A DNA stretch of 42,243 bases from a virus. How positions within the stretch are numbered: the first letter of the stretch is position 1; each line of letters starts with the position of its first letter. The position numbers and the translations under genes were made by a program. Under the pieces are notes generated by a model, which was not told where the DNA came from, made no database searches, and was given only the letters and a program-made list of their open reading frames with translations. The stretch covers positions 1-42,243 of IMG/VR virus record IMGVR_UViG_3300021425_002479, one strand, 5' to 3'. Below, one piece after another: positions 1,652 to 37,836 of this stretch.

Positions 1652-1802
1652 ATTTGATAAATGGTACGATAATCAAAACGATGCAACTAAGGTTTTTCTT
1701 GACAATCAAAGAAAAGAAGATAGTAAACTTATTATGCTCGGTTGGTGGTTAGGCGTTACGTCAGGTAGTCTTTTTACGCTTGTTATTTGCTCGATGCTAT
1801 AA
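1638..1802 (+). CDS. Single-span membrane protein, 54 aa
   Basis: Short ORF overlapping the end of the preceding gene by 14 bases. A charged N-terminal half (KSKFDKWYDNQND) is followed by one hydrophobic helix at about residues 31-52 (LIMLGWWLGVTSGSLFTLVI). Its last 20 bases overlap, tail to tail, the end of the cyclase gene on the other strand, which marks the convergent end of the plus cluster. There is no family match and no terminator hairpin between the two converging genes. Unknown function; possibly a partner of the two UviB-like proteins. Confidence 0.55.
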   Translation: MFKSKFDKWYDNQNDATKVFLDNQRKEDSKLIMLGWWLGVTSGSLFTLVICSML

Positions 1803-3834
1803 AGATACCATTCCAGTCTTTAGGTAAATCTTGAGTTTTTTGGAACTCGCAACGTTCTATCCACATCTTATAGTAGTCTTCCATCTTGCCATTGAAATGA
1901 CGTTTTAGTCTTTCGCAAATATAAATTGCTTCATCAAACTTCTGTGAGCGATATGCATCATGCATACGCTCGTGCATTTCTTTACTTTTATATTGTGCTT
2001 TAGTTCCTTGTAAATCAAGTACAGTGTATATGCTTAGTCCTACGCTTTTACCTTTAACTTGCAAGTCATCTACCTTTAAGTAAAAGAAGTTATCTTTAGT
2101 TGCGTTGTATGTTGCTTCACCAACTAGTAGCAAACATCCATACTCCTTACACTTGCTTTCTATACGAGCCGCTGTACTTACAGCATCCCCGAGAACATCA
2201 TAACTGTGTCTGGCTGTTGACCCCATTTCACCAAGATAGCCAAGACCAGTATTAATACCGGCACCCATACCAATGGGTGGTCGGCCTTCACTTGTAATTT
2301 TTTCATTAAACTTCTCCACTGATTTTAACATTTGTAATCCTGTTTCAACTGCTGTTCTAGGATGGTGCGGATCATCAATAGGAGCATTGTGTATGTGCAT
2401 ACTTGCGTCACCTATGTATTTGATTATCATTCCATCTGCGTCAAGTACAGGTTGTGTAATAGCATCCATATAGCCATTCATTAGTTTAGTTAGGCCTTTT
2501 ACATCATCGCCAAAACTTTCGCCAAGTGGTGTAAAGCCACGCAAGTCTGAGAACAGGATACTTACTTCACGCTTCATACCTTCTTTGATTAGTGCTGGAT
2601 TTTCTTGTAGCATACGCACAACAGTGGGCGATGCATATCCAGCAAACTGTTTTTTAATTTCTTGTTTCTGCAAATACTCGCTTACGAATCGATTAAAAAC
2701 AGCATGTAAACTTACTAGAACAAACGCTAGTATAGGCATAGTTACATCAAGCAAGTACAAGTACTCTTGCCACGCATATAAAGCGCCGTAAGCAAGTCCT
2801 CCTGTTACTACTATTATAAGCAAACCTACAGCCCAAAAAGGCGCAAGAGCCGCAACTACTATAGCAATTACACTAACTGCCGCTGTAGTTGCAAGCTCTG
2901 CTAGATCAGCCCAAAATGGTCTTTCGATTTGGTCGCCGTCTAATAAAGTTTGTAGTGTAACAGCCGCAGGTATATAATTATATTGCGGGCCAGTTGGACT
3001 AGCAATAAGTCCGCCTAAACCTTCTGCTGTTATTCCTACGACAACAGTACGACCTTGGAATTCACTAAAGTCATCCTTGGCCGCACTTATTGTGTCAAAC
3101 TTTTTATTCCAACGTAACCAAATTTGGCCATTAGGGTCAGTGTTAATAATTGGGTAACTCGGAACACGGATCTTTTCAATGCCACCTTCGTTGGCTTTGA
3201 TTTGATAAGATGGTTGACCTGTGGCTAATCTAATTACCTCTACAGCGAGCGATGGATATGTATCCTCCTGGATACGCATGATCAAAGGTACACGGCGTAC
3301 TACACCGTCTACTTCAGGTGCTGTGTTTATAACTCCAACACCACCGGCATTTTGACCTAGTAGAGGAATAGGACCCAGCATGCCTGGCCATTCAAACAAG
3401 AATGGTAATGGGTTTCCTATTTTGGCAACTCCGCGGGGAACGGAATTTTTGTTGACTGATGTGGTTCCCGTCTGGGCAATTACTACACCGTTGTCTGCAA
3501 GTGCATTGGCTAATGCTTCATCTCCACCTAATCTATCAGGTTCGGAAAAAAGTATAGGTATTACAATAATACCTGCACCTGCTTCTCGAAGTTTCCAGAC
3601 TATATCTGCAATTACTTCGCGCTTCCAAGGCCACTGACCATACTTCTCAATGGCAGGTTCGTCAATAGCAACGATTCCTATATCTTGGGATTGCACCGGC
3701 TGATCGGTTTGTTGAAGTAAATCAAATTGCTTCAGCCTAGCAGTTTCCACTACGGTGCTATTCCCATAGTGTAACATAAAAAGTATTAGAGCTGTTATGA
3801 ATGTAACAGACCAATGTGTGATATACTTCGTCAT
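1783..3834 (-). CDS. CHASE2-domain adenylate cyclase, class III, 683 aa
   Basis: Membrane receptor cyclase expected to make cAMP in response to a periplasmic signal. Order: N-terminal transmembrane helix (about 8-24), CHASE2 sensor (about 30-305), three transmembrane helices (about 312-382), then a class III cyclase domain (about 420-610). Metal-binding aspartates D430 (FSDLRGFT) and D476 (YIGDA) are present, as are the adenine-selecting pair K472 and D546. The transition-state Asn of the usual GDxVNxxxR motif is Ser here (GDAVSTAAR, S553); R557 is kept. Activity may therefore be altered. The start ATG has no Shine-Dalgarno; a late box ends 4 nt upstream. It is the last gene of the curli-type operon, which suggests it senses or signals envelope change. 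Confidence 0.93.
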   Translation of the reverse strand: MTKYITHWSVTFITALILFMLHYGNSTVVETARLKQFDLLQQTDQPVQSQDIGIVAIDEPAIEKYGQWPWKREVIADIVWKLREAGAGIIVIPILFSEPDRLGGDEALANALADNGVVIAQTGTTSVNKNSVPRGVAKIGNPLPFLFEWPGMLGPIPLLGQNAGGVGVINTAPEVDGVVRRVPLIMRIQEDTYPSLAVEVIRLATGQPSYQIKANEGGIEKIRVPSYPIINTDPNGQIWLRWNKKFDTISAAKDDFSEFQGRTVVVGITAEGLGGLIASPTGPQYNYIPAAVTLQTLLDGDQIERPFWADLAELATTAAVSVIAIVVAALAPFWAVGLLIIVVTGGLAYGALYAWQEYLYLLDVTMPILAFVLVSLHAVFNRFVSEYLQKQEIKKQFAGYASPTVVRMLQENPALIKEGMKREVSILFSDLRGFTPLGESFGDDVKGLTKLMNGYMDAITQPVLDADGMIIKYIGDASMHIHNAPIDDPHHPRTAVETGLQMLKSVEKFNEKITSEGRPPIGMGAGINTGLGYLGEMGSTARHSYDVLGDAVSTAARIESKCKEYGCLLLVGEATYNATKDNFFYLKVDDLQVKGKSVGLSIYTVLDLQGTKAQYKSKEMHERMHDAYRSQKFDEAIYICERLKRHFNGKMEDYYKMWIERCEFQKTQDLPKDWNGIFIASSK

Positions 3835-4262: not shown

Positions 4263-5321
4263 TTAGTTATTTCTGTTTACAATTATTGAGCAACCGTTTG
4301 CATTTGTACAATACCCGGTTATACTTACACTGTCAGCACTTGTAGTAACATTTTGAGTTAGACTGTAGTTGTATGCACCCCCAGAGTTTGTAAGATCTAT
4401 TGCGGCCGTTGCACTTTGGCTGCCTCGTTGATTAACATCTACTGTATGTCCGTCACCGTCAAGAACAATGTCTGCCCACTTAACGCCGCTGTTGCCTCTT
4501 TGATATAGATCAACCTCATTATTGTCGCCTGTTATTTCAATAAAACCATCGTGTCCTGCTTTGCCCATTTGTGTATGCGTTACACCATTGTTATCGCCGT
4601 CTACTACATTTGCTATATGATGTCCTGCACCGCCACCACCTTGCCTGTTTGTGTCTGTTTGATAACTGTCTAAAACATTGTTATCGCCTGTAACAGTCCA
4701 GTATACTTCGTGATCACCTGTTTCATCTGTATCAGTTGTGCCATCATCGTGTTTGCCCTGCCAAGCATTAATAACATTGCTATTACCTGATACTACAACA
4801 CGGCTAAAGTTATTGTCTGATTCTTGATAACTGTCTAAATCGTTATTGTCTCCGTCGGCTTCTGCATACGATTCGTTGTAATCGCCTTCTTGATATATTG
4901 TAATTGTATTGCCATTATGATCGTAACTGCTACCAGCTTCGGCGTGAGCATCATTATTATCACCTAGTTGTGTTACACTCATTGTGCAGTCTTCACCGTG
5001 ACAGTCTATTACAGCCGCATTGTTATCTCCAGTTTGTGTTAGAGTGCTACTACTGTCTCCTATGTCAGCATTGTATATGCCAAGTGTATTGTTGTTGCCT
5101 GTTTGTGTATAAGTGAATGTAGAAGGACCAAGACTTCCAATCAGCCCTTTATTTGATAGGTTATTCAAATCACCAATCTTATTATTTTCACCATCCTGTG
5201 TAATGGTAAGATCAACATTGTCACCAATTTGGTTTATATAGATTTCATTAGCATAACAGGCTTGAGCACCAAAGTATGCAAGTATAACTACTAATCCTAA
5301 ATGTGTTCCTGTAAATTTCAT
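4263..5321 (-). CDS. Secreted curlin-repeat protein, 352 aa (CsgA/CsgB-like)
   Basis: Predicted amyloid fibre subunit exported through CsgG. An N-terminal signal peptide ends ACYA before the mature start NEIYINQIGDN. The mature chain carries about ten irregular curlin-type repeats of the form x-Q-x-G-D/N-N-x (INQIGDN, ITQDGENN, YTQTGNNN, LTQTGDNN, VTQLGDNN, YQEGDYN, YQESDNN). It is strongly acidic and rich in Asn, Asp and Gly, as in curli and other functional amyloids. Two Cys pairs (near CHGEDC and at the C-terminus) are unusual for CsgA. The start overlaps the FecR stop (ATGA). The mature N-terminus nearly matches that of 6441-7142, so both probably share an export signal. It is about twice the length of E. 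coli CsgA. Confidence 0.85.
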   Translation of the reverse strand: MKFTGTHLGLVVILAYFGAQACYANEIYINQIGDNVDLTITQDGENNKIGDLNNLSNKGLIGSLGPSTFTYTQTGNNNTLGIYNADIGDSSSTLTQTGDNNAAVIDCHGEDCTMSVTQLGDNNDAHAEAGSSYDHNGNTITIYQEGDYNESYAEADGDNNDLDSYQESDNNFSRVVVSGNSNVINAWQGKHDDGTTDTDETGDHEVYWTVTGDNNVLDSYQTDTNRQGGGGAGHHIANVVDGDNNGVTHTQMGKAGHDGFIEITGDNNEVDLYQRGNSGVKWADIVLDGDGHTVDVNQRGSQSATAAIDLTNSGGAYNYSLTQNVTTSADSVSITGYCTNANGCSIIVNRNN

Positions 5322-6466
5322 TGGCTCTGCCTTATATCTATAGAGTTAATACCAGCACCTAGTCTATAATCTAGTATTGCTTCTCCTTGTTGTTCTACGT
5401 TAATAATATATCCCCCTTCTTGGGATAATGTTAATTGTGTCATGTTAACAACACCTGAGTCTGTTCTTCTAAATACGTAATTAGGATCAGCCTTTTCTAA
5501 TTCTATTCTTGTATCTGGATCGTAACCAAATTGTTGGTCTGCAAAAAATTGTTCGTTTTGTTTGTCTAGTTCGTTTCTAAATAATGCCGCTAATTGCATG
5601 TTAAGTTGATCTATCATATCATGTAACAATTCACCTAGGTAATAATCTGTTCCACGCATTAAGTCTGTTACCCATATATCTTTGATGCTATCTGTAAGTG
5701 CATCTGTATCAAGATCATCAAATTCTAAGTAATCAATATCTAAGAATTCAAACTGAGCTCTTTGTTTTTTAAGTATTTCTATTTCTTCTTCGTCGTAAGG
5801 ACTACGCTTTCTTAATATTAAAAGCGATCCTATTTGTTTTTCATCTAAGTCTATTACCAATGGCTTTGATGGTTTTTGGTAACTACTTTTTATTTGTGTT
5901 GTTTGAAATGCTTGGTTCATAATAACGAAACCTGTGTCGCTTTCAACACTAATTTCGCCTACTACACATGTACCGTTAGTATCACAACTAGGTAGCAATG
6001 TAACCATTGTACCACCTATCTCGTCTACAAGCATTATGAAATCTGTACCACGTACACCGATTGTTGCACTTGGTGTTCTTATTTTTACGTTTTGTTGATA
6101 ACGTTTTGCTATTTGTCCAGAAGCGTACCTTACTGTTCCTAATGACGCTTTTAAACTAATTGATCCTATATCGTTTGCTGGATCATATACAAACTCATCA
6201 ATTAAAAGTCTGCTATGATCGGTAAGATCAACACGGGTGTCGTCCACAAAGTCAATACGCATTCTACCTTTTGCGGTAACTGCTGTATCCATACTTTGCA
6301 CACCAACACCCGTGCCTCCTTCAATAACCTGACGATCCCTTTCCAATACACCGGAACCTTTTATTTCGCCAATTGCTCCTGCATCAGGACTAGCGAATGC
6401 CGGCAAACTGGAAAGGGCCACACATATTGCTATGCCCGACTTAATCAGATTGCGTAATATCAACAT
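5318..6466 (-). CDS. FecR-domain protein with C-terminal curlin-like repeat, 382 aa
   Basis: Secreted protein: an N-terminal signal peptide ends LPAFA. A FecR domain follows (about residues 45-150), recognisable by IDFVDDTRVDLTDHSRLLID and PSATIGVRGTDF. The middle is acidic and helical. The last 45 residues look like a curlin repeat pair (TQLTLSQEGGYIINVEQQGE, then GAGINSIDIRQSQ). FecR domains in bacteria bind polymers or transmit envelope signals. Fused to a curlin tail, this protein could be a nucleator or anchor for the fibre, like CsgB. The start chosen is the ATG at 6466, which overlaps the preceding gene; an upstream in-frame TTG at 6496 is possible. Confidence 0.8.
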   Translation of the reverse strand: MLILRNLIKSGIAICVALSSLPAFASPDAGAIGEIKGSGVLERDRQVIEGGTGVGVQSMDTAVTAKGRMRIDFVDDTRVDLTDHSRLLIDEFVYDPANDIGSISLKASLGTVRYASGQIAKRYQQNVKIRTPSATIGVRGTDFIMLVDEIGGTMVTLLPSCDTNGTCVVGEISVESDTGFVIMNQAFQTTQIKSSYQKPSKPLVIDLDEKQIGSLLILRKRSPYDEEEIEILKKQRAQFEFLDIDYLEFDDLDTDALTDSIKDIWVTDLMRGTDYYLGELLHDMIDQLNMQLAALFRNELDKQNEQFFADQQFGYDPDTRIELEKADPNYVFRRTDSGVVNMTQLTLSQEGGYIINVEQQGEAILDYRLGAGINSIDIRQSQ

Positions 6467-7142
6467 CTTGGTTATCACCGCTGAAAGTCGCTTCAATTAT
6501 GTTATCGCCCAATCCGCTTTGGGTTATATCATAAGTGCTACCACCTCCTGTTACATCAATGTTTATCGTATGTCCGTTAACGTCTCCGTTACCGTCTATA
6601 TCAATAGTGAATGTGTTACCAGTATTAGCAAGACTTGCACTATTATCACTTGTTAGTGTAAGTGCTACACTTTCGCCATCAATGTTAGATGTGACTGTGT
6701 TACCGTCACCATCAATAGTAAAGTTTGCTACTAAGTCTTGTGCATCTGCTGTTTCACCTGCATAAATTGTAAATGCGTTTGAATCACCATTTGTTGTTAT
6801 ATTTGCTGTTACGTTTTCACAATTGACACCTGAAGTTTGATCGCAAGTCATAGTAACACTATTACTGTCTCCGATAAAACTCCACGTACCAGTATAGGTA
6901 TTCCCTTTGATAACCGCCGCTATCGTGTTAGAATCACCTTGCTGAGTAATACTAAATGTCATATCGTCGCCATCTAGTGTTACGTCAGTTTGTGATGTAC
7001 CAATCACGTTATTGGAACCATCCTGCACTATGTCTAAATCTAAATTATCACCTATTTGAGCAATATAGATATCATTAGCATAAGATGGAACGGCTATTAA
7101 AAGTGATACACATATTAAAACGCTTTTTATTATTTTTTTCAT
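6441..7142 (-). CDS. Secreted curlin-repeat protein, 233 aa (CsgA/CsgB-like)
   Basis: Signal peptide ends VPSYA before the mature start NDIYIAQIGDN. Curlin-type units follow (IAQIGDN, IVQDGSNN, ITQQGDSN, then more degenerate TINGDGNTV-type strands and ITQSGLGDN, ITQSD at the end). It is acidic, Asn/Asp/Thr-rich and nearly Lys-free after the signal peptide, typical of secreted beta-solenoid amyloids. It follows csgG by 6 bases and its end overlaps the FecR gene. It has one Cys pair (CDQTSGVNC). It probably is one of two fibre subunits exported by the adjacent CsgG/CsgF pore; major versus minor subunit cannot be told from sequence. Confidence 0.83.
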   Translation of the reverse strand: MKKIIKSVLICVSLLIAVPSYANDIYIAQIGDNLDLDIVQDGSNNVIGTSQTDVTLDGDDMTFSITQQGDSNTIAAVIKGNTYTGTWSFIGDSNSVTMTCDQTSGVNCENVTANITTNGDSNAFTIYAGETADAQDLVANFTIDGDGNTVTSNIDGESVALTLTSDNSASLANTGNTFTIDIDGNGDVNGHTINIDVTGGGSTYDITQSGLGDNIIEATFSGDNQDVDITQSD

Positions 7143-7148
7143 ATTATT

Positions 7149-8018
7149 TTAGCCCTCATCCGAGGCCCCATCTGCCTCAGATTTATTATTAATTGTCTCT
7201 ATAGATTCAGTGGTATCTTTTTTAAAAGACCATAAACGTCTACGTTCTCCTTCGTAAATGAGTTCAATAACACCCTGTTCTACCGCCGCCCTCACAGCAT
7301 AGTTTACAGGCTCATTTACAGAAAACCCAGCCTCTGTTTCTACTAATTTAGTTCCTAAATCAAAGAACTTAAAAATATCCGCTCCGGATCTATAGCTTGC
7401 GATTGTTTTTTCGGTTGCTATACTCATTAGCACTTTTCCTGTGCTAACACTTACTAGCCTCATGACTACAGTAACAGTGTCCACTCGGTACTCTGTCTGT
7501 ACGCCTAAGCCTAAATACCTTGCTCCAGCACCGCCAACGGCTGTGTTGCTGTCATATCCAACAACTCCGCCTTCCAGTATCAAACCTGCAAATAGCATTG
7601 GTTTGAGAGGGGTTGGTCCTGAAGGTAATTCTTTTTCGTATACCTCTCTTGTTTGCCTTATTAATTGCCTTTCTTTAATTAAATTATCCATTCCAACACG
7701 TTCGACTACTTGAAACCATTGTCCTTGTCCAACGTCTTGTAGGGCCTTAATGACCCAAACTTCACTGCCTTGTGTTACCGCACTACTTAAACTTGCTACC
7801 ATGTCCGAAGGTTTACGTTGACCAGTTTTATCATTAAAGCCATAAACGGCTATAGTAATTTTTGGTCCGTCAACTGGTGGAACATCTTCCATACGTTTCT
7901 GTATTGGACTCTCTTGTAGAGTAGGAGATGTAGCAGTATCCTCAAGTATTTGTAAACTTGGGTTCATTGCACATCCACCCAACATAGCAAGTGTTGTTAA
8001 GATTGCTAGGATTCTCAA
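7149..8018 (-). CDS. csgG: CsgG-family outer-membrane secretion lipoprotein, 289 aa
   Basis: Pore of the curli (type VIII) secretion pathway; in E. coli CsgG forms a nonameric outer-membrane channel for unfolded curlin. A type II signal peptide with lipobox LGGC (Cys16) is present. The core matches CsgG: ITIAVYGFNDKTGQRKP near residue 55, the ALQDVGQGQWFQVVER block near 92-107, the transmembrane-hairpin region (about 140-200) and FDLGTKLVETEAGFSVNEP. The length is close to E. coli CsgG (277 aa), with a short extra acidic tail. It overlaps csgF by 4 bases and precedes the curlin gene by 6, as expected for one secretion unit. A phage carrying it is notable. Confidence 0.95.
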   Translation of the reverse strand: MRILAILTTLAMLGGCAMNPSLQILEDTATSPTLQESPIQKRMEDVPPVDGPKITIAVYGFNDKTGQRKPSDMVASLSSAVTQGSEVWVIKALQDVGQGQWFQVVERVGMDNLIKERQLIRQTREVYEKELPSGPTPLKPMLFAGLILEGGVVGYDSNTAVGGAGARYLGLGVQTEYRVDTVTVVMRLVSVSTGKVLMSIATEKTIASYRSGADIFKFFDLGTKLVETEAGFSVNEPVNYAVRAAVEQGVIELIYEGERRRLWSFKKDTTESIETINNKSEADGASDEG

Positions 8019-8485
8019 AAGTTAAACTCCCCCAATCCTGGAATAGTAATCTCTGTAACTGATCCATCTTCTCCAATAATTGTAAGTGTAATACTTCCTG
8101 TTACTGTATCTTTGATCCAACTTATTGTGTTGCCTTCAACTTCTGCTGTGCCGGCATTTGCACAAGTGTCGCCACAATCAGCAAACATGGCATCAACCAT
8201 TTGCTTACTAAGTGTTGCGTAAATTCTACTTTCTAAGTTTCTAATAAACTTATTGAGAACGCTATTTTCTAATTCACGTTCTATTCGCCTCGCCTCTGCT
8301 TCTGCTTCTTTACGAAGTTCTTGCTTGCGATTATGCTGTAACTGTTCTACACTTAAAACGTGTGTAGAGTAACCATTGCCATAATGAAATGCTGGATTTT
8401 TAAATTTCCATGTTAGTTCAGTAGCACCGACAGGTGAATAAACTAGTACTAGAGTTAGTGCTAGTATTTGAGTTAGTCTCTTCAT
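8015..8485 (-). CDS. csgF: CsgF-like curli assembly protein, 156 aa
   Basis: CsgF binds the outer face of the CsgG pore and attaches the curli nucleator to the surface. The sequence has a signal peptide ending GATE and the CsgF N-terminal signature ELTWKFKNPAFHYGNGY (E. coli CsgF: TWQFRNPNFGGNPNNG type). A charged helix (about 55-95) and a beta-rich C-terminus with one Cys pair follow. The true start is the ATG at 8485, which has ACGGAG upstream. A GTG 27 bases earlier is in frame but lacks a ribosome site. It is the first gene of the operon. Curli accessory CsgE is not seen here. Confidence 0.87.
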   Translation of the reverse strand: MKRLTQILALTLVLVYSPVGATELTWKFKNPAFHYGNGYSTHVLSVEQLQHNRKQELRKEAEAEARRIERELENSVLNKFIRNLESRIYATLSKQMVDAMFADCGDTCANAGTAEVEGNTISWIKDTVTGSITLTIIGEDGSVTEITIPGLGEFNF

Positions 8486-8537
8486 ATATATCTCCGTTAC
8501 GAACGCCCTCACGCTCTGTTCATCGAATTACCACTTG

Positions 8538-9765: not shown

Positions 9766-10473
9766 CTATATAGAATATTTATCTAATTTAGGGAACAACA
9801 TATCAGTACAGAACTTGTCTACATCTTCTTCTGCAAGTCCAAGTGTTTTCATTACGTTTGCTGTGTGGGGATTTTGTTGCTGGTTTTCACAATAATAGTT
9901 CTGTGCGGCTAGTGTCATATACTTGTCACCGTAGCCTTGAAACTGTGGTACTTCGTCAAACCATGCTTCTAAGTTTGCTAGTGCTAGATCAATAATTGCA
10001 ACAGCCTCTTCTTCTGTACGTACATTGCCTGCGGCAATCATACTATCTGTAAAAATGTTTTGAGCCCATTCAGGAAGTGTTCTTTGTTTAGTTGGTACAA
10101 AGTCTTTTACAGCATCTCTATAACCTTCTACCATTGGATGGTCATCGCCGCCACTACTTGCACTAAAGTCATGGAAGGCCCCAGTCATTTTATTTTTACC
10201 TGCAATAACATCAAAGCCGTATATTGGAGCATCGTTGTCTAGTGTTGGGAAACAACATACATGCATCATCCATAAGCCTTTAGACTCACGTGCATCTACA
10301 ACGTCTATGTGTGCTCTGCGTACATATTTGTTAGCCCATACACGATTGATCCAGCCATTGTCAGGCTGATTAAAATGCGACAGCCCTGGCTCTTCTATTT
10401 CGTCTGCATGTTTTTCAAATATTTCTAATATTTGATCCTGACACTCAATCAGTCTGTCCCATATAATGCTCAA
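9766..10473 (-). CDS. pcyX: Ferredoxin-dependent bilin reductase, PcyX-like, 235 aa
   Basis: Reduces biliverdin IX-alpha with ferredoxin electrons to a phycobilin; phage PcyX enzymes make phycoerythrobilin. The FDBR core is clear: RRAHIDVVDARESKGLWMMH, then APIYGFDVIAGKNKMTGAF and HDFSA, where the conserved catalytic Asp sits. The length of 235 aa fits PebS/PcyX rather than the larger PcyA. It lies directly downstream of, and overlaps by 29 bases, a heme oxygenase gene that supplies its substrate. The start must be the TTG at 10473: an in-frame stop lies just before it, no ATG occurs nearby, and GGAG sits 7 nt upstream. PcyX versus PebS cannot be settled without a tree. Confidence 0.88.
   Translation of the reverse strand: MSIIWDRLIECQDQILEIFEKHADEIEEPGLSHFNQPDNGWINRVWANKYVRRAHIDVVDARESKGLWMMHVCCFPTLDNDAPIYGFDVIAGKNKMTGAFHDFSASSGGDDHPMVEGYRDAVKDFVPTKQRTLPEWAQNIFTDSMIAAGNVRTEEEAVAIIDLALANLEAWFDEVPQFQGYGDKYMTLAAQNYYCENQQQNPHTANVMKTLGLAEEDVDKFCTDMLFPKLDKYSI
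9776..9782 (-). promoter_or_regulatory. T4-type late promoter box before 8619-9752
   Basis: GATAAATA-type box inside the last codons of the bilin reductase gene, 23 bases before the ATG at 9752. It leaves a leader carrying the AGGGAA ribosome site. Confidence 0.45.
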
Positions 10474-11011
10474 TGTCTAACTCCATTAGTTCTTTAAATA
10501 AATTTGTTGCAGAGTCAAAAACGTATTTTGCTTCTTCAGCCATATCGTCATTGATCTTTGCACGGACTTTGTCCTTGAGTACAGAAGTATCTTCATCAAA
10601 CTGATACATTCTAGCCTCGCCCGGTATACGTTTTTTAATCATTTGTCCGCCGCTAAGGTCACCCATGTGTAACACATATATGTGAGCCATTATTTTTGCT
10701 GGATCAGCCATTATTGTTTTCATATGACTAATGTACTCATTTGTACTTTCAACTATCGGCGGCGGTAGTTGATTATTCCATAATTCTAAGTAATCATCAT
10801 GGATTGCGTTCTTACGTCTTATTGCATATAGATCATCTAGTAAACCGTGTGTAGTTGCAACAGCTTCTAGTAAATCATATTTCTTATGTTGATTCCATAA
10901 GTATGTTGCGTAGAACTGTGGATTAATTTTTCCACTCATCAATACTTTAACAAACTCTTGTCTTTCTGCTTCTTTATGATGTTCCCATGTTAATTCTTTT
11001 AAATTTCCCAT
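10445..11011 (-). CDS. ho1: Heme oxygenase, HO1 family, 188 aa
   Basis: Opens heme to biliverdin IX-alpha, CO and iron in the cytoplasm. The proximal heme-ligand His is in LTWEHHKEAER near residue 11, and the distal-helix signature HMGDLSGGQMI is near residue 115. The length is typical of bacterial and phage HO1. The start chosen is the ATG at 11011, three bases after the clpS stop; an upstream in-frame TTG at 11029 would overlap clpS. The gene overlaps the downstream bilin reductase, so the two enzymes are translationally coupled and form a heme-to-phycobilin pathway. Iron or CO release from heme are alternative benefits to the phage. Confidence 0.92.
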   Translation of the reverse strand: MGNLKELTWEHHKEAERQEFVKVLMSGKINPQFYATYLWNQHKKYDLLEAVATTHGLLDDLYAIRRKNAIHDDYLELWNNQLPPPIVESTNEYISHMKTIMADPAKIMAHIYVLHMGDLSGGQMIKKRIPGEARMYQFDEDTSVLKDKVRAKINDDMAEEAKYVFDSATNLFKELMELDIEHYMGQTD

Positions 11012-11012
11012 A

Positions 11013-11315
11013 TTACTCGTTTTCTTCAACCCTTATTTGCAGGGGGAACCCCTGGTTTCTACTAAGTGTTGTTGCTTCAGCTGCTTTTACTTCTGCAATC
11101 TCATACGAGTAAACTCCTACAACACCACTTCCTTCTGTATGTATCGTCATTGTTATTTCTTCTGCTACAGCCTGGCTGTGTTTGAATACAGATATTAATA
11201 ATGACACGACCCATTCCATAGGCGTTGCGGCATCATTGAGAAATACTACCTTGTATTGACTAGGTTTCTTAATCTCTTGTTTGATTTTTTCATCTAATTG
11301 TACGTCTACCGACAT
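11013..11315 (-). CDS. clpS: ClpS-like ATP-dependent protease adaptor, 100 aa
   Basis: Adaptor that delivers N-degron substrates to host ClpAP. The ClpS core is plain: YKVVFLNDAATPMEWVV (N-degron pocket region with the ND and M), FKHSQAVAEEITMTIH and GVVGVYSYEIAEVKA. The length matches host ClpS. The Shine-Dalgarno GAGGAAAG lies 3 nt before the ATG, right behind the hsp20 terminator T-run. No ClpA is present in the window, so it would act on the host protease, perhaps redirecting it. It forms a unit with ho1 and the bilin reductase downstream. Confidence 0.92.
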   Translation of the reverse strand: MSVDVQLDEKIKQEIKKPSQYKVVFLNDAATPMEWVVSLLISVFKHSQAVAEEITMTIHTEGSGVVGVYSYEIAEVKAAEATTLSRNQGFPLQIRVEENE

Positions 11316-11326
11316 TTTCTTTCCTC

Positions 11327-11354
11327 AAAAAATGGGGGAGTAGTACACTCCCCC
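11327..11354 (-). terminator. Rho-independent terminator after hsp20
   Basis: Stem GGGGGAG/CTCCCCC (11334-11340 with 11348-11354), 7-base loop, then six Us on the minus transcript (11332-11327). It separates hsp20 from clpS. Confidence 0.85.
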
Positions 11355-11362
11355 TAGACTAG

Positions 11363-11827
11363 TTACTTCTCAGCAACTTCACCATCGATTGTAAAACCAT
11401 TATTGATTTTAATTTTCTTTGGTTGTAGTTCCTCAGGAACCTCACGCTTCAAATGAATGTTAAGCATACCTAGTTCAAGGCCTGCACTTTCAACATCAAC
11501 GTGATCTGCAAGTGTAAACTCCCTACGGAAGTTACGTCCGCCAATACCTTTGTGTAGGTAATTGACATCCTCGTCCCCTTTAGGTGCTGTTCCTTCAATC
11601 TTTAAGATATTTTTATCTTTCTCAATTGAAAGATTGTCCATACCAAAGCCAGCAACCGCTAATGAGATCATGTACTCATCTTCGTTTATCTGTGCAATGT
11701 TATATGGGGGATACCCTTGTCCTTTAGCAGAATTTTCGAATACTCTGTCCATTTCGTCGAACATTCTATCGAATCCTACAAAGTGTCTGTGAATTGAGGG
11801 TAAGTCTAAGGTTGATATTCTTGTCAT
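11363..11827 (-). CDS. hsp20: Small heat shock protein, Hsp20/IbpA family, 154 aa
   Basis: ATP-independent holdase chaperone. It has the IbpA-type N-terminal region with the GFDRMFDEMDRVFE and YPPYNI signatures, then the alpha-crystallin domain (about residues 40-130) with MISLAVAGF, RNFRREFTLAD and a GMLNIHLKREVPE strand. A C-terminal IxI-type motif is present (KKIKIN). Hsp20 is common in T4-like cyanophages, where it may help scaffold or virion assembly. The start has AGGAG 7 nt upstream and a TATAAATC box 24 bases upstream. A strong terminator follows. Confidence 0.95.
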   Translation of the reverse strand: MTRISTLDLPSIHRHFVGFDRMFDEMDRVFENSAKGQGYPPYNIAQINEDEYMISLAVAGFGMDNLSIEKDKNILKIEGTAPKGDEDVNYLHKGIGGRNFRREFTLADHVDVESAGLELGMLNIHLKREVPEELQPKKIKINNGFTIDGEVAEK

Positions 11828-11850
11828 AGTTTTCTCCTTTATTAAGCAAG

Positions 11851-11857
11851 ATTTATA
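11851..11857 (-). promoter_or_regulatory. Late-type promoter box before hsp20
   Basis: TATAAAT followed by C, seven of eight matches to TATAAATA, 23 bases upstream of the hsp20 ATG. A second box lies at 11921-11927. Confidence 0.4.
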
Positions 11858-11893
11858 TTAAAGAGTCCTTTCGGCACTCTACCTAAATGTATT

Positions 11894-11910
11894 GGGGGAA
11901 TCATTCCCCC
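11894..11910 (-). other. Hairpin between groES and hsp20, no U-tract
   Basis: GGGGGAA/TTCCCCC with a 3-base loop (11894-11900 with 11904-11910). On the minus transcript it is followed by AATACATTT, not a U-run, so it is a weak terminator at best. It begins 10 bases after a late box and could cap a late mRNA leader. Confidence 0.5.
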
Positions 11911-11920
11911 TCTACACGTT

Positions 11921-11927
11921 TATTTAT
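11921..11927 (-). promoter_or_regulatory. T4-type late promoter box overlapping the groES stop
   Basis: ATAAATA overlapping the groES TGA, continuing AACGTG. The same ATAAATAAACGTG string occurs in front of pstS. Confidence 0.5.
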
Positions 11928-12214
11928 CATTGTAAAACCGCTACTATGTCTTTTTCGACAATAGTTGTGTATTTTACATCTGATATTTCATATGATTCGC
12001 TGACGTTTGGGTTGACTAGTATTCTAGCACCAACTTCAACTTCAGGCACGATAAAGTTACCTTTATCATCATATTTACCAGGACCAACAGCCATAACTTC
12101 AGCTTCCATAATAGTATCGATCTGAGCTTTAGCAATAAAAATACCGCCTGCTGTTTGCTCCTCTGGTTCGTCTATCTTGATAATTATCTTATCAAGAATT
12201 GGTCTTAAGTTCAT
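11927..12214 (-). CDS. groES: GroES-like co-chaperonin, 95 aa
   Basis: Lid of the GroEL chaperonin; T4 gp31 plays this role in phage head folding. The sequence is a full-length Cpn10: MNLRPILDKIIIKIDEPEEQ, then a mobile loop containing AGGIFIAK (the GGI[FV][IL] GroEL-binding tripeptide), AVGPGKYDDKGNFIVPEVEVG and IVEKDIVAVL. The family's roof-loop and beta-barrel spacing are kept. It is driven by the best sigma70 promoter in the window (TTGACT, 17 bp, TATAAT), so early expression is likely. It probably replaces or modifies host GroES for capsid protein folding. Confidence 0.95.
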   Translation of the reverse strand: MNLRPILDKIIIKIDEPEEQTAGGIFIAKAQIDTIMEAEVMAVGPGKYDDKGNFIVPEVEVGARILVNPNVSESYEISDVKYTTIVEKDIVAVLQ

Positions 12215-12235
12215 AAGTTTTACCTATAAAATTAT

Positions 12236-12264
12236 ATTATATTACAATTTAAATTTAAAGTCAA
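12236..12264 (-). promoter_or_regulatory. Sigma70-type promoter for groES
   Basis: TTGACT at 12264-12259, 17-bp spacer, perfect TATAAT at 12241-12236. It lies within the end of the barrel gene. The CTTGACTT context is shared with the prs and pstS promoters. Confidence 0.7.
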
Positions 12265-12832
12265 GTATAAAGAATGCAATATCTTTTTCGAAACTATTGT
12301 TAAAATCAACTTCAAGATATGGTACAACAGTAAAATTATCACTTACTTTATACTCTACTCCTGTAAAGGTTTGTAGGTGACTGTAACCCTTGTCTTTAGA
12401 ATTGTAATTGTAATTCCATTGTGGCTCGAACGTAATAAACGGTTTGCCGCCTAAGACAGTAAAATTGCTTGGCTTTATACCAAACTGTGGGCGATAACGA
12501 AATACGTTATCTTTACTCTCTCTTACACGATGTTCAATACGATGATTGTACCAAAACGCACCCGATCGAAAGCCTTTCATTTGCGCTCTGAACCAATGTT
12601 CTTCACGCTCTCCTTTTTGTACATTTCTGTACTCTAACCTGTAAGGTGTTCCTGTAAAGTCCTTCCTTAAGATTACATGCGAAACATCTAAGTCGATGTT
12701 TTCTCTTATGCCCAATGTGAATCCGCTATCTGAGTGTTTAACAAAGGTGTTGGTTTCAACATGGTCAAAGTCTTTTGCATATGCACTCGTTGCAAATAGT
12801 GCAACGAATCCTGCAATGATTAAATTCCTCAT
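12242..12832 (-). CDS. Outer-membrane beta-barrel protein, 196 aa
   Basis: A signal peptide ends TSAYA. The rest is alternating aromatic/polar beta strands (FTLGIRENIDLDV, YRLEYRNVQKGEREEHWF, FWYNHRIEHRVR, FITFEPQWNYNYNS) ending DFKFKL, as in small 8-10 strand outer-membrane barrels. The true start is the ATG at 12832 (GGAG upstream), not an upstream in-frame ATG that overlaps the transporter gene and would spoil the signal peptide. It follows a DUF401-like inner-membrane protein, so the pair might move a solute across both membranes. A superinfection block or surface change is the alternative. Family not named. Confidence 0.75.
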   Translation of the reverse strand: MRNLIIAGFVALFATSAYAKDFDHVETNTFVKHSDSGFTLGIRENIDLDVSHVILRKDFTGTPYRLEYRNVQKGEREEHWFRAQMKGFRSGAFWYNHRIEHRVRESKDNVFRYRPQFGIKPSNFTVLGGKPFITFEPQWNYNYNSKDKGYSHLQTFTGVEYKVSDNFTVVPYLEVDFNNSFEKDIAFFILDFKFKL

Positions 12833-12855
12833 TTTATTAGTCTCCAATTTTATTT

Positions 12856-13911
12856 TTATAGTACTAGTGTTGCGCCTCCTGCGCCCACTAGCAATAGCAT
12901 CCATATTCCTAAAGCGTTAGCATACTTTCTCCACGGTGTATCAAAATACATCTTACCAATCGCCATACATTTATGCATAGGTGATACTAAGTATCCTGCA
13001 TAATCTAAAGCAAAGAACCATACAAAGTATTCAACTCCGTATACTAATGATAAGATTGTTGTGATAGCCGCAAATCTACTGCTTGATCCAAACGCAAAAG
13101 CGGAACCAAATGCAATAGCACTAAGGGTAATAAACCCTTGGGTAGTATTAATATCAAACGCTGAGTTTTCTAAGTATGCTTTAACAACGTCAGTGTATTC
13201 TCTTGCAAAGTTAGCCATTATAATAATAACAGCGACCCAAGCTATCAACCTAAAGTCAACATAGCTCATTAACTTTTTGTAATCCCATGTCATAGTTAAA
13301 ACCATGTAATAGAATAACAAACCGCCAAACACTAACCAAGGGTCTAAGCCCGCTACTGGTTTAAGTGCTAGTGCGATAGCAAATAAGAAAGGTACTACAT
13401 TTCTTAAAACGTTAGAAACTTTAAAATGAGTTTTTTGAATATTAAGTTCAATATCATCTTCTTTGACAAAGAACATTATATACGCAAATACTAATCCTAA
13501 AGATACAATTAACAGTGGCAGTAGTGAATATACTACAGCACCGTATGTAATACTAAATGCAGCCATTGGTATGAGAATTGTTTTCTCAAGTGGTGACCAC
13601 ACATAGTAGTGGTGTGTTGACAAGTAGTCAATGATGCCAAATTTTTCTCGTCCTTTTGTTCCTTTCGGAGGAGCGATAGTATCTAACATACCAGCTGATA
13701 TTGTAACACGACCAGATACTGGGAGAATACCTGTAAACGCACTCATTAATCCAACAATCACACGTTTAGATTTAAACACTTTTTGAATGTAAGCATAAGC
13801 ACCTGCAAACAAATTATGTTCTTTAATCAAACCTGCGATCATCATAATAAACGCAATAAACAGTAGGTATTCTTGCCCCTTGTACAGCAAGTTTAAATTT
13901 TCCAAGGTCAT
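12856..13911 (-). CDS. Polytopic inner-membrane protein, DUF401/gluconate-permease-like, 351 aa
   Basis: About nine to ten hydrophobic helices run through the whole length. The segment LMSAFTGILPVSGRVTISAG near residue 55-75 resembles the re-entrant hairpin of the DUF401 / ion-transporter superfamily. A second, similar small-residue stretch (ITLSAIAFGSAFAFGSSSRFA) lies near residue 270-290, giving the inverted-repeat layout of such carriers. The substrate is unknown; an organic acid is a guess from the family. Its ATG has TAGGAG upstream. It lies between guaC and a barrel protein in one run. A phage transporter other than phosphate uptake is uncommon. Confidence 0.72.
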   Translation of the reverse strand: MTLENLNLLYKGQEYLLFIAFIMMIAGLIKEHNLFAGAYAYIQKVFKSKRVIVGLMSAFTGILPVSGRVTISAGMLDTIAPPKGTKGREKFGIIDYLSTHHYYVWSPLEKTILIPMAAFSITYGAVVYSLLPLLIVSLGLVFAYIMFFVKEDDIELNIQKTHFKVSNVLRNVVPFLFAIALALKPVAGLDPWLVFGGLLFYYMVLTMTWDYKKLMSYVDFRLIAWVAVIIIMANFAREYTDVVKAYLENSAFDINTTQGFITLSAIAFGSAFAFGSSSRFAAITTILSLVYGVEYFVWFFALDYAGYLVSPMHKCMAIGKMYFDTPWRKYANALGIWMLLLVGAGGATLVL

Positions 13912-13920
13912 TTTTATCTC

Positions 13921-15087
13921 CTAATTACCTATTGTGTTAGACTCATAAACCCGATTATGAGTTTGCGTACAACGAACAAACGTTGTACATTTACTCAGAT
14001 GCTTTAATTTAATAGCACCTGCGTAAGTGCAAGTCGATCTTACTCCTCCTAAAATATCTTGTAAAGTTACCCCTACAGATCCTTTATAAGGAATTAATAC
14101 CGTCCTGCCTTCAGAGGATCGATAATCTTTTAATCCTCCAAAATGTTTATCATTAGCACTACGACTACTCATGCCGTAGAACTGTACGAATCTTTTTCTT
14201 TCTATACCATCTTCCCAAGTTATCGATTGAGTTTGGCCATCAAGTGTTTGTTCATTTCGAACCCATTCACCTGTTTTGTAAAATTTTTCAATTACTTCGC
14301 CGCCACCTTCATCGTGTCCGGCAAGCATACCGCCTAGCATCACAAAGTCGGCTCCGCCAGCAAATGCTTTTGCTATATCGCCGGGTGTAGAACAACCGCC
14401 ATCAGCAATAATATGTCCGCCAAGACCATGAGCAGAATCAGCACACTCAATAACTGCGCTAAGTTGTGGATACCCAACTCCCGTTTGAATCCGAGTAGTG
14501 CAAACACTACCAGGTCCAATACCAACTTTAACAATATCAGCACCAGCAAGAATAAGTTCCTCCGTCATTTCTCCTGTAACTACGTTGCCTGCAATAATAA
14601 CAATGTGTGGAAAGTTACGTCTAAAGCCTCGCACAAATTCTACAAAACGTTGACTATATCCATTAGCAACATCAATACAAATATACTTTAATTGATTATT
14701 TACACGTTCGTATACGTTCTTAAATTTAATATAATCATTGTCTGTAATACCAATACTCATTGCAACATAGTCTGTGCGTTCTTGTGTATCACTGCCGAAA
14801 TACTCTACAAGTTCTTCTTCAGTATATGTTTTTACAAGACAAGTCATTACCTGTCCTGTTGCAAGATAATCTGCCATTTCCATTGTACCGACACCATCCA
14901 TGTTACTTGCAATAATTGGAATACCACTATAATGATATTCAGCGGAATTATCTGGAAATGGTGGATTATAATTCCTATATGTAAATTTACGATCTAAGTC
15001 TACTTGTTTACGTGAGCCTAGTGTACTACGCTTAGGACGAATGAGTACATCTTTATAGTCTAGTTTCATATCTTCTTCGATACGCAT
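13921..15087 (-). CDS. guaC: GMP reductase, GuaC, 388 aa
   Basis: Converts GMP to IMP with NADPH, linking guanine and adenine nucleotide pools. The N-terminus [21 protein letters not shown] is close to E. coli GuaC, fixing the start (TAATG overlap with the upstream stop). The catalytic loop [20 protein letters not shown] carries the active Cys. The phosphate-binding segments [20 protein letters not shown] and [15 protein letters not shown] follow. It has no CBS domains, which argues against IMP dehydrogenase. It is about 40 residues longer than E. coli GuaC at the C-terminus. Such a gene would help remodel host purines for AT-rich phage DNA; that is inference. Confidence 0.95.
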
Positions 15088-22666: not shown

Positions 22667-22923
22667 TATAATGTGTGTCCTGTACCATTGAAGCCGGTGT
22701 CTTCAATATATTTTAATAAATCTGTGTAACCACCAATGTTCTCACCGTTGATTTGTATTTGTGGTACACTCCTTGCACCTGGTACAGCCTCTAGTAAATC
22801 TTCTAACTGTACATCAGTACCGATCATTTTAACTTCGTAGTTAATATGCATTGCATCTAATTTTGCTTTAGCTTTGTCACAAAACGAACATTGCGGTTTG
22901 CTCCATACTATTACATTTGTCAT
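22666..22923 (-). CDS. grx: Glutaredoxin, 85 aa
   Basis: Thiol-disulphide oxidoreductase that can supply electrons to ribonucleotide reductase (T4 nrdC role). The active site is CSFC within WSKPQCSFCDKAK (Cys 12 and 15). The cis-Pro region SVPQI and the glutathione-binding GGYTD are present. The length is typical for a dithiol glutaredoxin. The ATG overlaps the nrdB stop (ATGA), so it is translated with nrdB, fitting a reductant for the NrdAB complex. Confidence 0.94.
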   Translation of the reverse strand: MTNVIVWSKPQCSFCDKAKAKLDAMHINYEVKMIGTDVQLEDLLEAVPGARSVPQIQINGENIGGYTDLLKYIEDTGFNGTGHTL

Positions 22924-24023
22924 AAACTAAATCCTTTAAGCGACTCTTCACTTACGTCTTGTTTAATACCACCAATAACATAAGACTCTACTTCAGTCTC
23001 TTGTGGGGCTACCTGCAAGCCTGAACTACTCAACCAATGTGTAGTCCACGGTAATGGGTTAGTGTTTACAGGTTGGTCAAAGATTGCATCTAATCCTAAT
23101 GCTTTTAATCGTCTGTTAGCAATATACTCTACATACTGATTAAGTAGTGTTGCATTAAGTCCAATCATTGAACCATCTTTAAATAAGTACTCCGCCCATG
23201 CCTTTTCTTCTTCTACACAAGTACGCCACATTTCGTACACTTCTTCTTTGCACTCTTTAGCAATCTTAACCATTTGTGGATCGTCTTTGCCATTAGCCCA
23301 ATTTTTAAGAACATGTGTACTTAGTGCCAAATGCTGTGCTTCATCTCTTGCAATAAGAGAAATAATTTTAGCACTGCCTTCCATTAGTTTTAATTCTCCA
23401 AAACCAAATGTACATGCAAATGATACATAGAAGCGAAGTCCTTCTAAGATATTTACATTCATCATAGCCAAGTAGAGCTTCTTTTTGACATCTAGCATAT
23501 TACCTTCACCGCGATGATTGTAGGCGTCTGCCGCTTCTGTAAATGCATCGTAGTTCTTAGTAACAGCCTCTGCACGTTTAAGAATCTCTTTGTCGTCTAA
23601 GATAGTATCAAATACTTCTGCAGGATCAGCATACACATTTTTCATAATATGTGTATACGAACGTGAGTGAATAGTTTCAAAGAAGTCCCAAGTAACAATA
23701 CAACCTTCTAGCTCAGGTATCGATACATGCGGCAAAAATGCTAGGCATGGACCACGTCCTTGTACACTGTCAAGTAATGTTTGATACTTTAAGTTTGCTG
23801 TAAAGATATGCTTCTGCTCAGGGCGGAAGTTAACATAGTCTGCTCTATCCTTTTGCAATGAAACTTCTTCTGGTCTCCAGAAGTATCCAAGCATAGTTTG
23901 ATTTAATTTATCAAACACAGGAAATTTGAATGTATCATATCTCTGTGTGTTCATGTCTGCTCCGAAGAACATATTTTGTTTGGTAAAGTCAACTTTGTCA
24001 GTGTTGAATATTGTTTTCGCCAT
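22920..24023 (-). CDS. nrdB: Ribonucleotide reductase class Ia beta subunit, 367 aa
   Basis: Holds the di-iron/tyrosyl radical cofactor for deoxynucleotide synthesis. Metal ligands appear in the expected order: D85 (TLLDS), E116 and H119 (ETIHSRSYTH), then Glu in FGFGEL, and Glu/His in RDEAQH. The radical Tyr is Y123 (HSRSY). The C-terminal tail that binds NrdA is present (VSEESLKGFSL). The sequence is close to E. coli NrdB in block order and length (375 aa). AAGGA lies 9 nt before the ATG. A sigma70-like promoter lies upstream, independent of the nrdA late box. Confidence 0.96.
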   Translation of the reverse strand: MAKTIFNTDKVDFTKQNMFFGADMNTQRYDTFKFPVFDKLNQTMLGYFWRPEEVSLQKDRADYVNFRPEQKHIFTANLKYQTLLDSVQGRGPCLAFLPHVSIPELEGCIVTWDFFETIHSRSYTHIMKNVYADPAEVFDTILDDKEILKRAEAVTKNYDAFTEAADAYNHRGEGNMLDVKKKLYLAMMNVNILEGLRFYVSFACTFGFGELKLMEGSAKIISLIARDEAQHLALSTHVLKNWANGKDDPQMVKIAKECKEEVYEMWRTCVEEEKAWAEYLFKDGSMIGLNATLLNQYVEYIANRRLKALGLDAIFDQPVNTNPLPWTTHWLSSSGLQVAPQETEVESYVIGGIKQDVSEESLKGFSL

Positions 24024-24050
24024 TTTAAAAATTCCTTATCCTATGTAGCC

Positions 24051-24080
24051 ATGCTACTATCTTTTATTCTGTTTGTCAAG
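24051..24080 (-). promoter_or_regulatory. Sigma70-like promoter for nrdB
   Basis: TTGACA at 24080-24075, 18-bp spacer, TAGCAT at 24056-24051 (4 of 6). It sits in the 59-base gap between nrdA and nrdB. Confidence 0.45.
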
Positions 24081-24082
24081 AA

Positions 24083-26383: not shown

Positions 26384-26418
26384 GTTGTTCTCCTCTTTCA
26401 TTTCATTCTTAAGTTTTA

Positions 26419-36054: not shown

Positions 36055-36076
36055 AAAGCATATAATGGAGGGCACC

Positions 36077-36844
36077 ATGCAAGATATAGAAAAAATGAAT
36101 TTTCTCGAGCGTTCATTGTTATTTGCAAAATTATCACAAATAGCATATGATAACTTCGATGAAGCAAAAAAGCAAGCGAAAAAATTAGGATTTACAACAA
36201 TAGAGTTTTACGACAAAGACGGAGCTCAGGCTTATCGTTTTATGAACAAGACAGACTTAGTAATTGCTTGTAGAGGTACACAACCTACAGAGTTTAACGA
36301 CATCAAGGCAGATGCAAACGCCCTTCCTGTAGTAGCAGAAACTATTTCAAGAGTACACAAAGGATTTAAAGTAGAAGTTGATGAACTTTGGCCAATGGTG
36401 CTGGAAGATATCGATCGCAAAGCCAACAGCAATAAAAAACTTTGGTTTTGTGGGCATAGTTTAGGAGCGGCAATGGCTACCATTATGGCAAGTCGCTGTC
36501 ACCTATACCCTGAGATTAATCCTGTTGAGGAACTGTACACCTACGGTTCACCACGTGTTGGTTGGCCAAAGTATTGTAGTAGTTTAGGCATTGTTCACCA
36601 TAGATGGAAAAACAACAACGACATAGTTACCACTGTGCCGCTAGTGATAATGGGCTATCGTCATCACGGTCAAGAACATTACATTAATGCTTATGGACTA
36701 TTAAGAAATCCTACAGGATGGCAACGAGTCAAAGATAAATTACGCGGTATTTGGATGGGTTGGAAACAAGGTAAGATTGATTCCTTCAGCGATCATAATA
36801 TTAGTGATTACATCAAACACATTGAGAATGCGTTAAGCAAATAA
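36077..36844 (+). CDS. Class 3 lipase (alpha/beta hydrolase), 255 aa
   Basis: Lipase_3 family esterase. The nucleophile elbow is CGHSLGAA (Ser near residue 138), followed by a catalytic Asp in [11 protein letters not shown] and a His in FSDHNISDY. An oxyanion-type [12 protein letters not shown] occurs near residue 76. No signal peptide, so it acts in the cytoplasm or on the inner membrane; membrane lipid breakdown during lysis or assembly is possible. The start is ATG 36077, with GGAGGG just upstream; an ATG 12 bases earlier is part of that ribosome site. It is the only plus-strand gene after 1802 and converges on prs with a 12-base overlap. Confidence 0.9.
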
Positions 36845-37786
36845 ACTGCTAACGCTTTCTTCGTTTGATACTCTACGGATTGCTTCACCTAAAAGATTTG
36901 CAACACTAACCTGTCTAGTTTTTTTACAACTTTTAGGACAACGATTGGCAATTGAATCAGTAACTACTAATTCATCTAGCACACTCTTTTCTACTTTTTG
37001 ACATGCGTCACCTGACAGCACACCATGTGTAATATATGCACGAACTGAAAGTGCGCCTGCATCCATAATTGCTTTTGCGGCATGGCAAAGTGTTCCGCCG
37101 GAGTCTACAATATCATCAACTAGGATTGCATGTTTGCCAGCAACATCACCTATCAGAGCCATAACTTCTGACTTGCCTGCTTCAGGCCTACGTTTGTCAA
37201 CAATAGCAATGTCACCGTGGAACATGTCTGCAAACTTACGAGCTCTCACAGCACCGCCCGCATCTGGTGATACAAATACTGTGCCTGCTTGTTCAACATC
37301 TGGGTCATCAATAATACCAATAGTGCGTTTGATGTCTTTAGCAAACACTACACGGCTTGTCAAATCATCCACTGGGATGTCAAAGAAACCCTGTATCTGT
37401 CCTGCATGTAAATCCATTGTAAGTATTCTGTCTGCACCTGCTGTTGTTAGCAAGTTGGCAACAAGTTTTGCTGTAATTGGAGTACGACTTGCACTCTTAC
37501 GATCTTGTCGTGCGTAACCAAAGTACGGAATAACTGCTGTTATCCTTTTAGTGCTTGAGCGTCTTGCCGCGTCAATCATTACTAGGAGTTCCATCAAACT
37601 ATCATTCACAGGTGTTGCTGTACTTTGTACAATAAACACATCTTCTCCTCTAACGTTTTCTTCAAACTCAACGCTAGTTTCACCGTCTGCAAATGTTGTT
37701 ATCTTAGCTGGAACAAGAGAAGCAAAACAGTGTTCTGCAATGTCCTCTGCTAAAACCCTGTTACTATTTCCTGCGATTATTTTCAT
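36833..37786 (-). CDS. prs: Ribose-phosphate pyrophosphokinase (PRPP synthetase), 317 aa
   Basis: Makes PRPP from ribose 5-phosphate and ATP, the precursor of purines, pyrimidines and NAD. Full-length Prs: an N-terminal [20 protein letters not shown], the ATP-binding loop [34 protein letters not shown], and the PRPP-binding [20 protein letters not shown]. The end [15 protein letters not shown] is typical. ATG 37786 is used; a TTG two codons earlier is also in frame. A good sigma70 promoter lies upstream, right after the pst terminator. With guaC it suggests active control of purine nucleotides. Confidence 0.96.
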
Positions 37787-37836
37787 CTTCAAGTGTAGTC
37801 CTTCCCCATGTGGATAGTATTTGTTAATGTTTATAC

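Follow-up and report, generated by a model that had tools for sequence, protein, structure and literature searches.

Curli biogenesis modules that combine a FecR-domain protein with an adenylate cyclase were described in 2022 in the marine phages HTVC008M and Melnitz (PMC9599517). The gene content and order of such a phage curli module (type VIII secretion system, T8SS) with FecR and cyclase are also found in the virus record IMGVR_UViG_3300021425_002479 of IMG/VR, a linear record of 42,243 bases that was analyzed whole and is called the window here. The last gene of this operon, at 1783..3834 on the minus strand, encodes a membrane receptor in which a CHASE2 sensor precedes a class III cyclase domain carrying Ser in place of the transition-state Asn. 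On balance, and with moderate confidence drawn from sequence comparison, this protein appears to be an active adenylate cyclase whose catalysis is altered, the receptor of a phage-restricted lineage whose catalytic half is rewired and swappable.

In the published module, the genes have the same order and the same cyclase likewise comes last, annotated as adenylate/guanylyl (guanylate) cyclase in the HTVC008M and Melnitz records; two HTVC008M genes in the row are annotated as hypothetical. These cultured phages represent both types of active site, the HTVC008M cyclase being of the Asn type and the Melnitz cyclase of the Ser type. In the accessible text of PMC9599517, the enzyme is termed AC and neither its active site nor its domains are analyzed, the main text having no match for active site, residue, CHASE or catalytic. 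Two other articles discuss curli genes in main texts that lack the word "cyclase" (PMC7029224, PMC9004378), and an exact-phrase literature search found no paper on a phage-encoded adenylate cyclase. The curli-FecR-cyclase module is already published (PMC9599517), whereas the searches made turned up nothing on the Ser-type lineage or on the swapping described below.

A sequence-only reading of the window had considered membrane receptor cyclases very unusual in phages. This view could not be maintained: a query based on the window found 375 relatives in viral contigs and one based on the sensor found 460 (best 80 kept in each case), relatives spanning 80% or more of the query occur in six phage GenBank records, and such cyclases are often the last gene of the marine-phage curli operon published in PMC9599517, as far as its accessible text goes.

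Among bacterial systems, the available portion of PMC5498481 reports that a plasmid-borne Sinorhizobium meliloti CyaD1 lacking CHASE2 gives constitutive cyclic AMP (cAMP), and includes SMc02177, a FecR-domain gene, among the Clr targets studied. Alphaproteobacterial CHASE2 cyclases such as CyaD1 share the CHASE2 sensor, membrane helices and cyclase domain with the window's protein, but the 29 homologs fetched have Ser/Asn at the positions of residues 546/553. A natural class III cyclase without the Asn is Ma1120 of Mycobacterium avium, which has Ala there and is active; adding Asn drastically lowered its adenylate cyclase (AC) activity, according to the accessible part of PMC4215837. The window's protein matches it in fold (Z 21.9, 4wp8), in spacing and in the absence of Asn, whereas Ala in that separate bacterial enzyme is Ser here. 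Pycsar PycC is related by class III homology (best PADLOC PycC match, E 1.8e-15), but its neighbor is a Pycsar effector instead of a phage curli operon, and its base-reading residues seem to differ when compared by eye: the window has Lys at −4 of the second Asp together with D546, and the published residues vary among PycC clades (PMC11224242).

Architecture and Active Site of the Receptor

The open reading frame (ORF) starts with ATG and translates into 683 amino acids (aa), while the plus-strand translation of the same interval is full of stops. The CHASE2 periplasmic sensor spans aa 15-325 (2860..3792; all features of the gene are on the minus strand; PF05226, E 6.8e-43) and beyond it hydrophobic helices extend to about aa 384, with hydrophobic stretches at 309-355 and 358-384 and helices at 309-330, 333-358 and 365-397 in a full-length AlphaFold2 model. 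That model, built from 20 sequences, is good for the sensor and poor for the catalytic part (pLDDT about 40-50), for which it was not used. The catalytic domain covers aa 421-597 by Pfam (2044..2574; Guanylate_cyc, PF00211, E 3.5e-17). A separate AlphaFold2 model of aa 391-683, with a mean pLDDT of 93.4, superposes by VIA-align on CyaB 3r5g (Z 26.5, root-mean-square deviation 1.8 over 189 residues) and on CyaC 1wc4 (Z 25.6, deviation 1.8 over 188 residues), which count as tied, being less than 1 Z unit apart. Homology, fold, the two metal Asp residues and the transition-state Arg place the domain among the class III nucleotidyl cyclases.

The first metal Asp, D430, lies in FSDLRGFT (2545..2547) and the second is D476 (2407..2409). 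The base-selecting Lys is K472 (2419..2421), preceded by Ile471 where Asn types have Asp, and the adenine-site residue is D546 (2197..2199), a position held by Ser/Thr in bacterial and phage Asn types. The strand residues H480-I481-H482 (2389..2397) stand where Asn types have Ala/Trp at 480/482. In GDAVSTAAR (aa 549-557, 2164..2190), Ser553 falls on the transition-state Asn position and Arg557 is retained. These positions bear out what had been read from the letters alone, namely a phage receptor cyclase with both metal Asp residues, an intact Lys/Asp pair and Ser in place of Asn.

It had also been considered that the family Asn might be displaced by one residue. Such a register error was rejected, since Ser aligns on Asn without gaps in the five best PDB alignments (6fht; CyaB 3r5g; 2w01; CyaC 1wc0 and 1wc1) and the D546-S553-R557 spacing of +7/+11 equals that of D157-A164-R168 in Ma1120 (PMC4215837, accessible part). 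The Ser/Thr adenine site and the Asn transition-state site of the canonical class IIIb CHASE2 subtype are absent, and the gene is not filed in that subtype because D546 and S553 replace them.

Conservation of the Ser-Type Lineage

Among the nearest relatives (best 80 of the 375 viral loci plus the window, Melnitz and HTVC008M), Ser is present in 79 and Asn in 3 of the 82 sequences having the residue, the remaining one of the 83 being incomplete at this position. Altogether, 412 ORFs were typed by residues 546 and 553, giving 255 D/S, 131 S/N and 13 T/N; 13 were dropped: the regular expression had mis-read 3, and in 10 no motif could be read, eight of these being short fragments and two being truncated or diverged proteins. 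The 399 typed ORFs include overlapping loci of single contigs and the window twice (as itself and as L083), and the unique full-length sequences kept number 164 D/S, 92 S/N and 10 T/N. At least many of the typed loci were drawn by Asn/Ser motif patterns, so the proportion of D/S to S/N is meaningless; the sets drawn without that motif are the best 80 of 375, found with window-derived patterns, and the best 80 of 460, found by the sensor.

All 164 unique full-length sequences of the Ser type (161 viral and 3 from contigs of metagenome-assembled genomes, MAGs) keep D430, K472, D476, D546, S553 and R557, and also the two His residues. Since membership rests on D546 and S553, their count merely restates the definition, in which D430, K472, D476, R557, H480 and H482 play no part. 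The ratio of nonsynonymous to synonymous rates (dN/dS) in the catalytic domain is 0.086 over 176 Ser-type pairs (dS 0.1 to 1.0), and 0.102 over 71 pairs of Asn-type phage sequences. Random Ser-type pairs have a synonymous difference (pS) of 0.72, near saturation, with a median identity of 77% in the catalytic domain and 39% in the sensor. The near-saturated synonymous sites show that the similarity does not reflect recent copying, and the spread of a single recent copy was rejected on this ground; decay into a pseudogene was rejected on the invariant residues and dN/dS. Taken together, residue invariance, low dN/dS and synonymous saturation indicate a domain that is constrained and working, not decaying.

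The Ser does not stand alone. Ser-type sequences are set apart from Asn-type ones by eleven alignment columns (431, 438, 445, 452, 471, 478, 480, 482, 546, 553 and 554), and the linked residues of the Ser type include Ile471, Ser478, His480, His482, Asp546, Ser553 and Thr554. Ma1120 is not known to have the linked His/His set. When loci were selected by their sensor (best 80 of 460), the motif could be read in 72 of 80 loci: 34 were D/S with His/His, 37 were S/N with Ala and Trp/Phe, and one was T/N with Ala and Trp, with no mixed-type active site among the 72. The query alignment contained sensors of both cassette types, and the 8 loci without the motif are short, at 3,297-3,835 bases, and were probably truncated where contigs end.

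These patterns bear on the proposal that the enzyme is slow, with Ser weakening transition-state stabilization and lowering turnover. This is improbable: fixation across the clade together with linked changes argues against it, as does Ma1120, which works with Ala and whose AC activity drops drastically when Asn is added (PMC4215837, in the part available). The sequence-only reading was right about the receptor cyclase and the Ser replacement, but its suggestion that simple loss of Asn yields a slow or non-catalytic enzyme is not supported by a Ser that is invariant in a big phage clade, under purifying selection and tied to other active-site changes. With the Ser type, a large collection of natural class III cyclases is at hand that lack the textbook Asn and yet seem functional.

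Exchange of Catalytic Cassettes beneath Shared Sensors

Trees of the two halves of the protein, built by a quick method from the same 68 representatives, disagree. On the catalytic tree, calculated without bootstrap and with six linked columns masked, the 28 Ser-type representatives form one clade (SH-aLRT 100). On the CHASE2 tree, the Ser type is scattered and requires 9 switches, at least 6 of them forced by starred branches; flags on this tree mark a long branch and three rows whose composition is unusual. Identity profiles shift sharply near aa 361-391: against the Ser-type locus L191, the window shows 13-50% identity before aa 391 and 86-100% after it, while against the Asn-type locus L059, it shows 63-86% at aa 31-300 and 26-56% after aa 391. 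Among loci with at least 4.5 kb upstream, FecR and CsgG precede the cyclase in 103/111 D/S, 19/21 S/N and 3/4 T/N cases.

Because the Ser type is a single clade on one tree and scattered on the other, the sequence comparison shows catalytic cassettes repeatedly swapped beneath shared sensors within one phage curli/FecR operon slot. An active site that is strictly conserved, in a half repeatedly exchanged with the ordinary version, looks like a working alternative design and not a broken enzyme. The natural Ser/Asn pairs on closely related sensors make the role of Asn and the linked residues testable without engineered variants.

Apparent Phage Restriction and Cellular Relatives

The alignment with CHASE2 cyclases proposed by the sequence-only reading was run, and all 29 fetched bacterial homologs have Asn at 553 and Ser at the 546 position (L119 among them, typed S/N), none having Ser at 553. 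In a random pair sample, identity between the catalytic domains of the Ser type and of these bacterial homologs does not exceed 46%.

A bacterial donor of the Ser type was not found in the genome searches, the only hits being phage-like contigs in two MAGs, here G001 and G002. Among 289 genomes of G001's class (172 with a match at E 1e-10), Ser-type scores occur only on G001 contigs (579.6 and 574.7 bits), the next genome reaching 236; among 149 genomes of G002's phylum, they occur only on the G002 contig (624 bits, next 183). The exact motif pattern, used without an Asn-type positive control, matched 1/398 genomes of G001's phylum, G001 itself. Other phyla were covered by one scan of genome contigs with Ser-type-derived patterns, in which only L084, L085 and L086 appear among the matches listed. 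These three contigs, placed in two MAGs, one of Rhodobacteraceae and one of Pirellulales, bear FecR and curlin genes; L086, the G002 contig, also has a head maturation protease match, in L084 nothing was found beyond the operon except a lipase family and a weakly matching methyltransferase family, and L085 has the operon, its other genes being outside the search. All three are probably of phage origin and ended up in bacterial MAGs through binning. Since cellular copies are confined to contigs of two MAGs carrying genes of the same operon, the Ser type appears phage-restricted as far as searched, at a depth limited to the G001 and G002 groups.

The pairing of FecR with a CHASE2 cyclase is not general in bacteria, as FecR was found in 1 (L415) of 10 upstream neighbors given to Pfam from 16 fetched loci; HlyD was found in 3, GAF-HD in 2 and no family in 4. 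Two of the three HlyD neighbors also contain cNMP_binding. In these two bacterial genomes (L413:9877-11622 and L416:4861-6588), a cyclic-nucleotide-binding domain is fused to an HlyD secretion adaptor beside the CHASE2 cyclase, an arrangement that suggests direct cAMP control of a secretion pump.

Putative Signal Pathway and Host Context

As an active adenylate cyclase, the Ser-type receptor would convert ATP to cAMP in a homodimer, with two metals on D430/D476, the adenine read by K472/D546 and the transition state held by R557, Ser553 standing in for Asn. The default product would be cAMP because Lys472 and Asp546 form the adenine pair. CHASE2 would gate the reaction, probably together with the neighboring periplasmic FecR protein, and would thereby sense the state of FecR or the curli.

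Several points weigh against this reading. No cNMP_binding (PF00027) or GAF domain was found in the complete genomes of Melnitz and HTVC008M, and no cNMP_binding, GAF or class III cyclase domain in four alphaproteobacterial genomes, other receptor types being outside the search. These four genomes, of 1.2-1.4 Mb and from G001's class, were the ones with SAM-V riboswitches over threshold among 385 searched, and they are SAR11-like by inference only. With neither receptor domain there, a cAMP receptor is not evident in such hosts, which sharpens the question of what the phage curli operon signals in them. Within the window, PF00027 was absent from the 20 genes given to Pfam. Moreover, the concerted rewiring of the active site could mark a change of substrate, and purifying selection also fits a non-catalytic binding role.

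The first of these thoughts leads to an active cyclase with another product, in which the linked residues would alter the choice of base or the chemistry itself. The interchangeable Asn-type and Ser-type cassettes would then give chemically different messengers under the same CHASE2 sensors, and a phage would change its signal by domain exchange. The separating columns, among them 546, 471 beside the base-selecting Lys and the strand residues 478/480/482, agree with this idea, as do the lack of intermediates in the sensor-drawn sample, the repeated swapping and the missing receptor domains in the two isolate phages and four SAR11-like genomes. It is nevertheless considered unlikely, given that ordinary adenylate cyclases read adenine with the same pair as K472 and D546 (PMC4215837, accessible part) and that the residues published as base-reading in PycC (PMC11224242) do not seem to recur at the matching positions of an alignment read by eye.

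The second thought, a pseudo-cyclase that binds nucleotide and transmits a signal without catalysis, would account for the loss of one canonical catalytic residue and for the lack of an obvious cyclic nucleotide receptor in the same isolate phages and genomes. Metal Asp residues and a transition-state Arg that are invariant in all 164 sequences speak against it, and so does the trading of the cassette, within one operon slot, for fully canonical cyclases, making it a poor prospect, if anything slightly poorer than a slow enzyme. An active adenylate cyclase whose catalysis is altered is the preferred reading.

Operon and Neighboring Genes

The operon is transcribed from the minus strand in the order CsgF (8015..8512; PF10614, E 8.9e-14), the outer-membrane curli pore CsgG (7149..8018; PF03783, E 1.7e-48), a curlin-repeat protein (6441..7142; PF07012, E 1.6e-4), the FecR-domain protein (5318..6496; PF04773, E 1.9e-8; phrog_37870), a second curlin-repeat protein (4263..5321; PF07012, E 1.8e-20) and finally the cyclase. 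The end of the FecR-domain protein (window 5318-5400) is a curlin-like stretch with a pattern like N-x-I-x-I-x-Q, which recurs at the FecR C-terminus in many related loci, as if made to join or sense curli fibers. In some large Ser-type contigs (L244:1224-3527, L246:6643-8511, L263:5805-7520), a curlin-repeat gene of the operon is about two times the size of the window's longer one.

The opposite strand just downstream of the cyclase encodes two related small proteins (815-1093 and 1313-1651; phrog_18771), one of which weakly matches a holin (E 9e-4). Elsewhere in the window (10445-15087, 22920-26401 and 36065-37792) lie genes for heme oxygenase, ClpS adaptor, HSP20, GroES-like protein, IMPDH, ribonucleotide reductase, class 3 lipase and PRPP synthetase.

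Several loci encode stand-alone proteins, about 100-130 aa long, whose similarity to the cyclase is confined to its C-terminal part, the last strands and helical tail, without the catalytic core (L060:11189-11587, L061:12865-13251, L147:5776-6174, L259:1563-2051, L079:1358-1729, L286:558-944, L167:8376-8753 and L073:2347-2697). They gave no tblastn match in the phages collection. In BFVD, structural matches of 102-104 aa to the cyclase model possibly belong to the same family as these stand-alone proteins.
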